A stretch of 64,000 bases of DNA from NCBI RefSeq assembly GCF_026684035.1, contig NZ_CP113361.1:372001-436000 (forward strand), in the 5' to 3' direction. Below the pieces are notes generated by a model that made no database searches, was not told the origin of the DNA, and saw only the letters and a program-made list of their open reading frames with translations. Source of the DNA: Methanogenium organophilum (GTDB lineage: Archaea; Halobacteriota; Methanomicrobia; Methanomicrobiales; Methanomicrobiaceae). A program made the translations under genes and the position numbers. This document shows positions 6,158 to 38,995 of this stretch, in pieces. Each line of letters starts with the position of its first letter. Within the stretch, counting starts at the first letter, position 1.

Positions 6158-6976
6158 ATGAGTAGAAAATACGGGATCGTATGCGCCATTATCGCGGCGT
6201 TCTGTCTCTGCATGGTTTGCGGATGCACCTCAGATGCAGCACCTGCAACTGATGCAGTACAGATAAGCACTGAAGAAAAATCGCTGATCGTGTACTCCGG
6301 TGCAGGGCTCCGTGACCCAATGGACGAAATTGCACAGGTCTACGAGGAAAAGACCGGCACCGAGATCAAATACACCTACAGCGGTTCAGCACAACTCCTC
6401 TCCCAGATGGAACTGCTCCAGGAAGGGGACTGCTACATGCCAGGTGCACGTGCATATATCGATTCTGCTGCTGAAAAGGGCTATATCAACAACAGCGAGG
6501 ATGTCATCTATCACGTGCTTGCAATCGCCGTTGAACCGGGCAACCCACAGAATATCACCTGCCTGAAAGACCTCACTGAAGACGGGGTAAAGGTCGCTAT
6601 TGGTGAACCCACCGGCAATGCCGTCGGAAAGGCCACCCAGAAGATCTATGAGAAGGCAGGACTCTGGGAAGAACTGCAGGACAACATCGTCGTCCGGTCA
6701 GGCACCGTGAACGAACTCCTGGTATATATGAACATGAAGCAGGCGGATGCCGCTATCATCTGGGAAGACCTCCTCGACAACTCTGACATCGAACACGTGG
6801 ATATCCCACAGGAAGAAGGGTTCATCAAGGTAGTTCCGGTGGGCACCCTGTCATTTTCTGATAAACCCACAGAGGCACAGGCATTTGCTGACTTCGTCGC
6901 ATCTGATGAGGGAAAAGCCATCTTTGTGAAACACGGATTTGAGACATACCCATCTGAGAAGTACGGGGATGCCTGA
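6158..6976 (+). CDS. modA: ModA-like molybdate/tungstate-binding lipoprotein, copy 2
   Basis: A 272-residue tandem paralogue of the preceding protein with the same layout: lipobox MVCGC, then LIVYSGAGLRDPMDEIAQ, the GDCYMPGA loop, RSGTVNELLVYMNM and DAAIIWEDLLDN. It is similar along its whole length, so it arose by recent tandem duplication. Differences sit mainly in the N-terminal linker and in charged surface positions. One ligand-region change is CGAGL to SGAGL. It has its own 224-bp upstream region, AT-rich around 6080-6140, without the CATATG palindrome of copy 1, so the two copies may be regulated differently or bind different oxyanions. Confidence 0.87.
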   Translation: MSRKYGIVCAIIAAFCLCMVCGCTSDAAPATDAVQISTEEKSLIVYSGAGLRDPMDEIAQVYEEKTGTEIKYTYSGSAQLLSQMELLQEGDCYMPGARAYIDSAAEKGYINNSEDVIYHVLAIAVEPGNPQNITCLKDLTEDGVKVAIGEPTGNAVGKATQKIYEKAGLWEELQDNIVVRSGTVNELLVYMNMKQADAAIIWEDLLDNSDIEHVDIPQEEGFIKVVPVGTLSFSDKPTEAQAFADFVASDEGKAIFVKHGFETYPSEKYGDA

Positions 6977-34312: not shown

Positions 34313-34573
34313 TTAGTATCTTCTGTATTCGGTACGCGGCCTCTGAGGACGTGCTTCATCAATTCTAAGAGTGCGGCCTTCAAATTCGGTCTCATTAAGA
34401 GCTTCCATTGCCTTCTCCGCCTCTTCTACATTGCCCATCTCGACGAACCCAAATCCTTTGCGCTCAATGACACGGACGTCCTTTACATCGCCAAAATCTT
34501 CGAATAATTCTCTCAGCTGAGCTTCGGTAACTGAATACGTAAGATTGCCAACGTACAATTTGCTGCTTTCCAT
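34313..34573 (-). CDS. Single-RRM RNA-binding protein
   Basis: An 86-residue RNA recognition motif: RNP2 is KLYVGNLTY near the N-terminus and RNP1 is RKGFGFVEM near residue 42, with the aromatic residues that stack RNA bases. The C-terminal 15 residues are Arg/Tyr-rich (RPQRPRTEYRRY). This resembles cyanobacterial Rbp-type and plant chloroplast RRM proteins. RRM proteins are rare in archaea but recur in Methanomicrobia, with probable roles in RNA folding or cold response. It is monocistronic; a TTATAT element lies about 20-25 bp before the start. Confidence 0.93.
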   Translation of the reverse strand: MESSKLYVGNLTYSVTEAQLRELFEDFGDVKDVRVIERKGFGFVEMGNVEEAEKAMEALNETEFEGRTLRIDEARPQRPRTEYRRY

Positions 34574-34953
34574 TTAAGTACTCCAATCTGAGATATAACC
34601 CAGATAGTATCTAACCTATTGGCTCTCATCTATTATATTATGTCGTGCCATAACCCGGTCCGACAATTTCGCAGGAAAAAGATACCGTGTGTGAATACTG
34701 ACAATGAGACGATGTATCTCACGGCATACCAATCATCAAAACCAACAGGGGTAATCAATACACACCATACTTCATTGATATTCACTCCAAAAATGATGTA
34801 ATACCGGCAATACCAATCGGAGATCGCTGCGGCATCATTATAGATCCCGCCCTCACTCTGATGAAAATTGAATCCGGTGCACATCAGGATTCTAAACCCC
34901 ATTCCAATAATAGATAAATATGATGAGCCCCACAGAGAGGCATGGTGAAAACG
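34574..34953. other. Intergenic region with divergent promoters
   Basis: About 380 bp between the RRM gene and the small two-repeat protein gene. An AATAATAGATAAATATGATG stretch near 34908-34927 is a likely TATA region for the latter. A 185-codon minus-strand frame crosses this stretch and the small gene; I read it as non-coding. Confidence 0.45.
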
Positions 34954-35145
34954 ATGATCTGTATGGGATATGCAAACCTCTCTGCCGGCGACATTGAGAA
35001 GGTAAAAACCATTGAAAAAGAGATGAACATAACTCTGCTCGCCTATGAAGTTCCAACCTACTCGAATCTGAAAGATGATGACCTGAAAAAGATCAAAGAC
35101 CTTGAGAAAGATCTGGGTCTTTCCCTGGTTGCATACGAAGTGTAA
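34954..35145 (+). CDS. Small protein of two tandem repeats
   Basis: A 63-residue protein. ATG 34954 is chosen because GGTGA (34944-34948) sits five bases before it. It consists of two copies of a ~28-residue unit: LSAGDIEKVKTIEKEMNITL-LAYEVP, then LKDDDLKKIKDLEKDLGLSL-VAYEV. Each is an acidic/basic helix followed by a beta strand L-x-A-Y-E-V. No family is recognised. The ordered pattern and strong ribosome binding site support a real gene. It is isolated. Confidence 0.75.
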   Translation: MICMGYANLSAGDIEKVKTIEKEMNITLLAYEVPTYSNLKDDDLKKIKDLEKDLGLSLVAYEV

Positions 35146-36916: not shown

Positions 36917-36930
36917 ATACATATAAATAG
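36917..36930 (+). promoter_or_regulatory. TATA-box candidate for the 36955-38995 operon
   Basis: ATACATATAAATAG lies about 30 bp before the ATG at 36955. With archaeal spacing the transcript would start at or a few bases before the start codon, giving a leaderless or near-leaderless first gene. No ribosome binding site is seen before this ATG, which agrees. Confidence 0.55.
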
Positions 36931-36954: not shown

Positions 36955-37407
36955 ATGGAAGGAATTGAGTTAGCGATACAGACACGGTCATTCCCCAGCC
37001 ACGGGCGGGCACGTGTCCATGAATCGATACTGCCTTTTCTGGAGGTTAAGGAAGGAGACGCAATTGAGGTAGAAAAACTGCCTCTGACAGAGGATGAAAA
37101 ACCAAAAAAGATCACCGTCAGCATCTACGCAGATACCATGGTGGAAAAAGGCAGAATCCGGATGAGTCCCGAAGATATTGCCAAAATTGCTGCTGCAGAA
37201 GGTGAGACGGTAAACGTGCGGAGAAAAGTGCCCTTCACGGAAACTCTCGGAAAAAAGGCATCCGAGACGGGGAAAGCCGTCCAAGAAGGGGCGGGCCATA
37301 TGGGGGAAACAATCCAAAAGGGTGCAAAAGACGTTGGTGCAAAGATCATGCCACATAAAGAAACAACGGAACACGAACCTGAGCCTGAACAAAAAGCCGG
37401 GGAGTGA
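36955..37407 (+). CDS. Cdc48-N/double-psi-barrel-like protein with amphipathic helical tail
   Basis: A 150-residue protein, the first gene of a six-gene operon. Residues ~1-95 (RARVHESILPFLEVKEGDAI, then KGRIRMSPEDIAKIAAAEGE) follow the pattern of the double-psi beta-barrel in the N-domain of Cdc48/VAT ATPases, or of related AbrB-like barrels. Residues ~100-135 form a repeating amphipathic helix (KKASETGKAVQEGAG, GETIQKGAKDVGAKI) of the apolipoprotein/LEA type, followed by an acidic tail. No ATPase domain is attached. Function is unknown; the barrel might be a substrate- or protein-binding adapter. Confidence 0.72.
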   Translation: MEGIELAIQTRSFPSHGRARVHESILPFLEVKEGDAIEVEKLPLTEDEKPKKITVSIYADTMVEKGRIRMSPEDIAKIAAAEGETVNVRRKVPFTETLGKKASETGKAVQEGAGHMGETIQKGAKDVGAKIMPHKETTEHEPEPEQKAGE

Positions 37408-37413
37408 ACAGCA

Positions 37414-37815
37414 ATGGCCACAGGATCCCTTGTTCTTGAATGGTGGACATGGTTTCAGTCTTTGTTATGGGTCATTCTCATCTTTATTGGTCTCATCATT
37501 CTCTATTACATCATCAAGGAGATACACGACGCCAAAGTGACACCCCGACTTGCAGAGATTGAACTGGAGAAAGAAAAACTACAGTTGATGAAACTCGATT
37601 ATGCCCACAGGGGTCAGCCGTTTTTCCGCGTCACCCCCGAAAAAATCGAAGAGATCAACACCCTTGACCAGGAAAATATCAGACTTGAGGCCGACATCTT
37701 CGCGAAACAGAGCGCAGTTGATCGCAGAATTCAGCGGCTCGAAAATTCGGTAAAGAGCACAAAACTGGATCATATGGTCGAGAAAATAAAGGAAGAGGAA
37801 CGTAAAATCCGGTGA
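37414..37815 (+). CDS. Membrane-anchored coiled-coil protein
   Basis: A 133-residue protein with one N-terminal membrane helix (WFQSLLWVILIFIGLIILYYII, residues ~12-34; last residues basic). A long cytoplasmic coiled coil follows at about 40-130 (KVTPRLAEIELEKEKLQLMK, then ENIRLEADIFAKQSAVDRRI). The anchor is like those of stator or scaffold proteins. It starts seven bases after the preceding stop and its own stop overlaps the next gene's ribosome binding site. No family recognised. Confidence 0.75.
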   Translation: MATGSLVLEWWTWFQSLLWVILIFIGLIILYYIIKEIHDAKVTPRLAEIELEKEKLQLMKLDYAHRGQPFFRVTPEKIEEINTLDQENIRLEADIFAKQSAVDRRIQRLENSVKSTKLDHMVEKIKEEERKIR

Positions 37816-37820
37816 TGAAT

Positions 37821-38126
37821 ATGTATGAAACAAATGTACCCAAAACACAACGGAAATCTTCATTTACCCACTCACTCTCATCTGTGCCGCACACAATAGA
37901 CAATACGCTGCCATCCATGGATAAGCGGCTTGGTCAATACTTTGATGCCCATATGACATCAATTATTTCTGAATGGGGGCTTGTCGCACGCTTTACCCTT
38001 GAAGACCTTGAACACCGCCTTGATGTAGTCAGCACAGAGATCAGTATCCTTGAAAAGGAGAAGGGTGCACTGGAAGGACGGGCATCTGCCCTTGATCTGG
38101 CCCTGCGTGAGTTGGAGGAGAAATGA
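37821..38126 (+). CDS. Small coiled-coil protein with DxxxxxxxxEWxL motif, paralogue A
   Basis: A 101-residue soluble protein. The ATG at 37821 has GGTGA at 37811-37815, itself overlapping the previous stop. A variable N-terminus leads to MDKRLGQYFDAHMTSIISEW-GL (about residues 34-55), then LEDLEHRLDVVSTEISILEK and EKGALEGRASALDLALREL, a coiled coil to the end. The motif F-D-x(8)-E-W-G-L recurs in the next two genes. Overlap with the next gene (stop and start share ATGA) indicates coupled translation. Confidence 0.72.
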   Translation: MYETNVPKTQRKSSFTHSLSSVPHTIDNTLPSMDKRLGQYFDAHMTSIISEWGLVARFTLEDLEHRLDVVSTEISILEKEKGALEGRASALDLALRELEEK

Positions 38127-38350
38127 TGGCAGGATTTGACGATTACATGAATTCCTACCTCGACCGCAGAATGAAGCACATCATTGATGAGTGGAATCTG
38201 GGCACGATGCGGGATTTCGGAGATTATCATATCCGTTTGCAGTCAGTCGAATCGGAAATAACAAAAATGAGGCGATTCACCGAGATTGCCGGCTCAAAGC
38301 TTACAAATATGGAAGAGAGGGCTGAGAAAGTCAGGGAGGAGAAGCAATGA
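38123..38350 (+). CDS. Small coiled-coil protein with DxxxxxxxxEWxL motif, paralogue B
   Basis: A 75-residue protein: FDDYMNSYLDRRMKHIIDEW-NL, then a short RDFGDYHIRLQSVESEITKM coiled coil to the end. It is the shortest member and almost entirely the shared domain. GGAGGAGAA precedes the ATG at 38123, which overlaps the previous stop. Its own stop overlaps the next ATG. It probably forms helical bundles or mixed coiled coils with the neighbouring proteins. Confidence 0.72.
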   Translation: MMAGFDDYMNSYLDRRMKHIIDEWNLGTMRDFGDYHIRLQSVESEITKMRRFTEIAGSKLTNMEERAEKVREEKQ

Positions 38351-38688
38351 CGACAGGTGAAATTCTCCTGATAATCATCGTTATCGCACTCATCGCATTC
38401 ATCCTCTATTACTACCTCAAAGGGTCATCCGGCCATGTGTCAATACGCCGGCCGATGGAAAGCCGGGTGGATGAGTATCTGGACCGCCACTTTGAACAGA
38501 TGGTTGACGAATGGTCATTGATGGATAAATACCAGGTATGGACCTTCCGGGAAAACAATGATCCGGCACTCGCCGAAGAAGAAAAACGGATGAATACACT
38601 CAAAGAATTCCGGCACGAGATGACGGATACCCTTGCAGGTCTGGAGGAACGCCTGAATGTTCTGGAAGCAGAAATCAACAGAGAGTAA
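38347..38688 (+). CDS. Membrane-anchored coiled-coil protein with DxxxxxxxEWxL motif, paralogue C
   Basis: A 113-residue protein with an N-terminal membrane helix (GEILLIIIVIALIAFILYYYL, about residues 3-23). It then has the shared domain SRVDEYLDRHFEQMVDEWSL (about residues 38-58) and a C-terminal coiled coil (MNTLKEFRHEMTDTLAGLEE). It combines the anchor type of the second gene with the domain of paralogues A and B, so the three may assemble at the membrane. Confidence 0.74.
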   Translation: MTTGEILLIIIVIALIAFILYYYLKGSSGHVSIRRPMESRVDEYLDRHFEQMVDEWSLMDKYQVWTFRENNDPALAEEEKRMNTLKEFRHEMTDTLAGLEERLNVLEAEINRE

Positions 38689-38743
38689 CAGGGGTCGGGG
38701 ACCTGACCTGTTTTACTCACAGTTGAAAGGAAACATTCCATTG

Positions 38744-38995
38744 GTGAAAAAACAGGGGGAACCTCCGGAGAAAGACCCATCCTCTTTTTCAAAATACTAC
38801 TGCGACCTCTGTAATGAGACCTTTTTTCTTACCAGATTACGCCAGTGCACGCTCTGCGGCAGATGGGCTTGTACTTCCTGCTGGACACAGGATTACTATG
38901 TCTGCAACTCCTGTCTTGGCATCTACAAACTTCATCTTCAGCCGTTTGTGCATTCAGATGTTGCCAATTCAGATACAACCGAAAACAATGAATAA
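38744..38995 (+). CDS. Small treble-clef/RING-like zinc protein
   Basis: An 83-residue protein from GTG 38744, or up to 112 residues if translated from an ATG at 38657 inside the previous gene; AAAGGAAA at 38726-38733 favours the short form. Zinc ligands: YYCDLCNETFF, then QCTLCGRWACTSCW, then YYVCNSCLGIY. These are four CxxC-type pairs, spaced like FYVE/RING/B-box-type cross-brace zinc fingers. The N-terminal linker is charged. It is the last gene of the coiled-coil operon. Function is unknown; it may be a protein- or lipid-binding adaptor. Confidence 0.7.
   Translation: MKKQGEPPEKDPSSFSKYYCDLCNETFFLTRLRQCTLCGRWACTSCWTQDYYVCNSCLGIYKLHLQPFVHSDVANSDTTENNE

Follow-up and report, generated by a model that had tools for sequence, protein, structure and literature searches.

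Cdc48-N and FYVE modules are familiar above all from membrane traffic and quality control in eukaryotes. The described systems that come closest to the locus analyzed here are the N domain of Cdc48/p97/VAT (Pfam PF02359), the binuclear treble-clef zinc family Prok-RING_2 (PF14445), the ESCRT-III-like membrane stress proteins PspA/Vipp1, and the phasins and perilipins. Prokaryotic RING fingers, the family to which one of the products belongs, were reportedly treated in a 2011 paper by Burroughs, Iyer and Aravind.

We analyzed a six-gene operon (genes A to F, 36955–38995, forward strand) in the window, i.e., a 64,000-nucleotide stretch of the Methanogenium organophilum genome. Its first product is predicted to form the same double-psi barrel as the Cdc48/p97/VAT N domain (about 86 residues, 1.4–1.9 Å), but A is free-standing, lacks AAA+ domains, falls below the Pfam cut-off, and is fused to an amphipathic helix and sometimes to a TrkA-C domain. 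F belongs fully to Prok-RING_2, whose model is silent on the other five genes; in cysteine spacing and predicted fold it is closer to FYVE domains than to classical RING fingers. Any likeness to PspA/Vipp1 would at most be functional, as a membrane-associated helical assembly, with DUF308 neighbors of the operon and, in one case, an M48-protease neighbor providing a similar context. Unlike PspA/Vipp1, the operon appears to use permanent transmembrane anchors, and genomes that carry it may or may not encode PspA; the PspA domain (PF04012) matched none of the six genes and nothing in the window's genome. Phasins and perilipins are alike in the helix, turn, and coiled-coil layout of C and in the amphipathic helix of A, but the matches of A and C to them are weak and an inclusion pathway is not consistently nearby.

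None of the six products has a functional annotation, and the only full family match is that of F, whose family name gives a fold. An earlier note on this DNA, made from sequence alone, did not recognize the set from any described system. This no longer holds for F, which belongs to an already catalogued family (Prok-RING_2, 5e-25), whereas the operon as a system still fits no known kind tested. The literature searched contained no description of it, although an earlier mention is possible in the 2011 RING-finger paper.

Gene organization and distribution

All six open reading frames, described earlier as short genes on one strand with overlapping stop and start codons, were found again at the coordinates given in Table 1. 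Genes A and B are separated by 6 nt, the B-C, C-D, and D-E junctions each overlap by 4 nt, and F begins 32 nt inside E. The 4-nt C-D overlap recurs in 40 of 48 related loci; at the E-F junction, an overlap of 32 nt is seen more often than any other (13 of 50 loci, using the most-upstream starts). The operon transcript is predicted to be near-leaderless, as the earlier note had proposed, which fits the TATA-like element ATATAAATA upstream of the gene A ATG. Methanogenium loci L031–L034 keep this element at an unchanged distance, and in other genera it is slightly shifted.

Table 1. Coordinates and predicted properties of the operon features in the window.
Feature	Positions	Strand	Description
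TATA-like promoter element ATATAAATA	36921–36929	+	Centered 30 nt 5' of the gene A start codon
Gene A	36955–37407	+	150 aa; predicted barrel at residues 1–93, then C-terminal amphipathic helix
Gene B	37414–37815	+	N-terminal transmembrane helix (residues ~16–34), then predicted cytoplasmic coiled coil
Gene C	37812–38126	+	Soluble motif protein (FDAHMTSIISEWGL) with coiled coil; probable start 37815 or 37821
Gene D	38123–38350	+	75 aa; minimal soluble motif protein (LDRRMKHIIDEWNL) with coiled coil
Gene E	38347–38688	+	N-terminal transmembrane helix (residues ~6–24), motif LDRHFEQMVDEWSL, coiled coil
Gene F	38657–38995	+	Binuclear cross-brace zinc protein, Pfam Prok-RING_2

When 84,980 genomes were scanned for conserved peptide patterns, which remote relatives may escape, 72 operon loci were recovered, all titled Methanomicrobiales or Euryarchaeota (Methanogenium, Methanolinea, Methanoregula, Methanospirillum, and relatives). 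Sixty of these carry the complete ABCDEF set in order on one strand, with gene B kept in every complete locus. Among the remainder, contig ends truncate eight loci and F is missing from six (L090, L097, L102, L106, L107, and L108); two loci fall into both groups, being F-less and cut at the contig start. The A-B-C-D-E-F order on a single strand is likewise present in 21 of 21 longer loci, and the flanking genes differ between genera, being common only to close groups. In the window's class (199 genomes), F occurs in 76 genomes (PF14445 above cut-off), E in 75, and A with strong scores in almost the same genomes. Presence of A, E, and F is nearly all-or-none, and the mismatches that were checked reflect contig ends (G184, G194) or, in G071, two lone A genes. 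A sample of the phylum yielded no relatives of E outside the Methanomicrobiales; other families belonging to this phylum gave PF14445 matches that were weak, came mostly from short or unrelated frames, and were rejected.

This strict co-occurrence and fixed order make it well supported, at the level of sequence, that the six genes form a conserved unit across the Methanomicrobiales, as previously suggested. Homologues do not occur scattered, the rare exceptions being solitary A genes in a single genome and copies of five genes that lack F, and comparison with known families identified no family operon to which the genes belong. The lone A copies indicate that A is able to exist without the other five genes, and the absence of F from second copies that F is not always needed. 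A fixed order across several major methanogen genera means that the six-gene unit must be useful.

The five-gene ABCDE copies lie at 2517–4282 in L106, 467–2233 in L107/L134, 711–2477 in L108, and 968–2929 in L102/L139. A calcineurin-like phosphoesterase or other membrane genes lie 3' of the second, F-less copies, and genomes G108 and G066 each have, at another site, a copy that includes F.

Paralogous motif proteins and membrane anchors

C, D, and E share a motif, D-x8-E-W-x-L, with identical spacing in all three. The motif had earlier been given as D-x(7/8)-E-W-x-L; its sharing by three proteins holds, but the spacing is always 8. Searches with phmmer connect the three proteins mutually, both within and across loci, at E-values of about 1e-2 to 1e-9. 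The strict motif is present in 43 of 48 orthologues of C, 37 of 48 of D, and 40 of 50 of E; random proteins of 104 residues and matching composition contain it in 0.045% of cases. The phmmer links and this difference in frequency argue that the motif is not a chance match. At genome positions 317801 and 1046760, two extra MxxxIxEW sites gave no family match and were dismissed as chance occurrences.

A tree of the region shared by C, D, and E resolves three groups with one change each and supports of 99/98, 92/84, and 97/92, from a short alignment (77 columns) in which long branches meet. Gene C orthologues form a single clade (99/98), and those of D and E likewise form one clade each across genera. 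By these sequence criteria, namely the phmmer links and the three-clade tree, C, D, and E are paralogues, as the earlier note had held, and of ancient origin. Since their clades span genera, the duplications would be older than the genera and the copies would have stayed side by side since. Their staying together suggests that C, D, and E have distinct fixed roles, for example as subunits of a hetero-oligomer, and the three clades likewise point to three non-interchangeable roles.

Hydropathy analysis agrees with the previous assignment of a single N-terminal membrane helix to two of the products: a hydrophobic helix occurs once, at the N-terminus, in both B and E, with Kyte-Doolittle maxima of 2.8 and 3.0, respectively. 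In both proteins positive residues follow the helix, and in E they occur solely after it, from which a cytoplasmic location of the coiled coils is expected; for E, the distribution suggests an N-out/C-in topology. When profiles were compared with solved structures, C and E matched coiled coils, and B and D gave weak helical matches only.

The barrel protein A and the zinc protein F

Both domain assignments made earlier, a Cdc48-N-like barrel with an amphipathic helix for A and a cross-brace zinc protein for F, agree with the comparisons below. The window's A matches Pfam CDC48_N at 5e-5, as do 36 of 50 orthologues (best 3.5e-9), but its score of 23.8 bits is below the curated cut-off of 35.1 bits, and orthologues with tabulated scores reach at most 33.3. 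The AlphaFold model of A has a pLDDT of about 90 over most of the barrel and superimposes on the p97 N domain with a VIA-align Z of about 15–16 and an rmsd of 1.4–1.9 Å over 85–88 residues. On these models, A is well supported as a Cdc48/p97-N-type double-psi barrel, with its fold settled and its exact ancestry less so. Some orthologues pass the cut-off of Molydop_binding, another double-psi barrel family; we rejected this identity, as it reflects the common barrel, and Cdc48 N domains lead the structure comparison. No AAA match was found in the 150 residues of A. The C-terminal helix is the low-confidence part of the AlphaFold model, and in some orthologues this region matches the Apolipoprotein, Senescence, and Perilipin families. 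Lipid-binding amphipathic helices are known to match these families.

F matches Prok-RING_2 with 87.8 bits against a cut-off of 22.4, covering positions 1–55 of 56. Its eight zinc-binding cysteines (CX2C-X11-CX2C-X4-CX2C-X7-CX2C) are all invariant in 25 orthologues. The AlphaFold model is closest to FYVE domains (endofin, Z 6.0; RUFY, 5.5; Vps27, 5.4; also Hrs and EEA1), with overall Z values of 4–6, below a Z of 8, and Foldseek E-values of 0.05–0.2; the Pfam FYVE match (0.002) is below cut-off. The predicted fold is suggestive of FYVE, more closely than of a classical RING. The FYVE PI3P-binding motif R(R/K)HHCR is not present in F, which has LRQCTLCGR at that place.

Genomic neighborhood

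Within 5 kb, the operon is accompanied by a gene for a DUF308/HdeD-like membrane protein in 9 of 23 genomes (0.94 expected, P = 1e-7) or, counted by genus, in 6 of 14 (0.92 expected, P = 9e-5); because the family was chosen after the neighbors had been seen, these P-values are optimistic. The association is missing from the window's own genus. HdeD is an acid-resistance protein of Escherichia coli that belongs to the DUF308 family. In several genera the DUF308/HdeD-like gene adjoins the operon, e.g., at 6294–6869 in L042 and 3540–4223 in L048.

Other neighbors are single cases. In L090, a gene for an M48/HtpX-type membrane protease lies directly 3' of the DE pair. L134 contains a PspA-type gene and, as judged by eye, an M48-like ORF and a cardiolipin-synthase-like ORF about 4–10 kb from the five-gene copy. 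In a Methanoregula-group genome in which B to F were not found, a lone A lies 190 nt downstream of a gene for a Cdc48-type AAA+ ATPase (L127, 52–3186); a second lone A is at 1623–2318 in L128. The window's own copy of the operon has no DUF308, M48, PspA-type, cardiolipin-synthase-like, or Cdc48 gene as neighbor.

Proposed function and alternative explanations

From the unit, its gene order, the paralogy, and the domain identities, all drawn from sequence or structure prediction, we infer an assembly, its topology, and a function. In the preferred reading, to which we assign a probability of roughly 0.4, the six products would build a hetero-oligomeric scaffold of coiled coils, tethered to the membrane and serving membrane stress or quality control, to which A and F would be attached at the periphery as adaptors. 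The scaffold would sit at the cytoplasmic side of the cell membrane, anchored by B and E, whose short N-termini would lie outside and whose coiled coils would be cytoplasmic. Through motif helix and coiled coil, C, D, and E would co-assemble as a bundle of fixed composition. A would rest on the membrane by its amphipathic helix, with its barrel binding partner peptides and, in some genera, its TrkA-C domain adding ligand sensing; F would act as a FYVE-like zinc adaptor rather than as a ubiquitin ligase. The task of the assembly would be the upkeep of the membrane or of membrane-protein integrity during stress, and care of the cell membrane under stress is in our assessment the most likely job of the operon.

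This scaffold is consistent with the retention of gene order in the 60 complete and 21 longer loci despite changing flanks, with A, E, and F being nearly always present or absent together in the class, and with the three C/D/E clades and the single anchors in B and E. It also draws on the barrel of A with its lipid-family helix matches, a FYVE-like F in a genome with no E2 match, the DUF308/HdeD-like neighbors, and the single cases of the M48/HtpX-type protease and the Cdc48 gene. Against it count the coiled-coil similarity of the operon proteins, which is generic, the loss of F from second copies, the lone A genes, the lack of correlation between PspA and the operon, and the missing DUF308 association in the window's own genus. 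More specifically, and more tentatively, it is possible that the operon encodes an order-specific membrane-organizing machine that combines a stand-alone Cdc48-N barrel, a FYVE-like zinc domain, and a three-paralogue coiled-coil scaffold and works independently of ubiquitin and phosphoinositides. A membrane scaffold of this kind would be an archaeal counterpart of bacterial membrane-stress systems. It would place Cdc48-N and FYVE-like domains in membrane biology without ubiquitin or PI3P, and would bear on pre-eukaryotic uses of both domains. The six genes are a small, self-contained set suited to reconstitution.

If A instead served Cdc48-dependent quality control, its free N domain would act at the membrane, where it would recruit clients or cofactors of Cdc48 or compete for them, and F would be a substrate receptor feeding a Cdc48/proteasome pathway. 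The closeness of A to the p97 barrel (Z about 16), two Cdc48 genes in the genome, and the lone A 3' of a Cdc48 gene in the Methanoregula-group genome point this way. Such an adaptor is nevertheless unlikely: the A model corresponds to the barrel half of the N domain only, N domains are parts of Cdc48 and not its usual cofactors, and just one other AAA-type ATPase match (L045) turned up in the whole set of operon loci read. Still less probable is the coat of a hydrophobic inclusion or a specialized membrane patch, in which a perilipin/apolipoprotein-like A and phasin-like C and D would be organized by the anchored proteins. A has matches to Perilipin, Senescence, and Apolipoprotein, and C matches Phasin more often than any other family (17 of 24 members, sub-threshold, best 6.5e-4), but wherever a curated cut-off allows comparison the matches fall below it (window's C, 14.7 bits against 28.8 for Phasin). 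Amphipathic and coiled-coil sequences readily match such families, and genes for polymer or lipid synthesis are not consistently linked.

We consider it quite improbable that the operon regulates an ion channel or transporter, the scaffold gating a nearby transporter via TrkA-C. TrkA_C does end A in 10 of 50 orthologues, including those of Methanospirillum and some other lineages, with a match of up to 4e-12 in another, and channel-like and sodium-symporter-like genes lie close to some copies. However, the window's A and most orthologues lack TrkA-C, and the transporters vary from locus to locus. The least likely alternative, to which we attach very little weight, is a conjugation module in which F would act as a RING-type E3 with an archaeal ubiquitin-like protein. 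Membership of F in Prok-RING_2 would fit, but its predicted fold is nearest FYVE, and the other five genes gave no match to E1, E2, Ubl, or JAB protease. Moreover, the complete genome has no E2 match (PF00179) at E-values up to 1, which makes a ubiquitin-ligase role of F unlikely.

Other candidates and observations

Three further candidates were rejected. Replacement of PspA was set aside because 7 of 15 genomes with PspA above cut-off carry the operon or F, approximately the overall rate, so PspA and the operon are not mutually exclusive. For a viral origin, E had no relative in viral contigs, and PHROG yielded one weak match of unknown function, to D. As to an anti-phage defense system, none of the six products matched PADLOC models at E-values up to 0.01.

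Two small genes elsewhere in the window were also recorded. On the reverse strand, 34313–34573 encodes, as judged by eye, a small RRM-type RNA-binding protein; such proteins are better known from cyanobacteria and eukaryotes. On the forward strand, 34942–35145 encodes a 67-residue protein whose two halves resemble each other and both end in L(L/V)AYEV.
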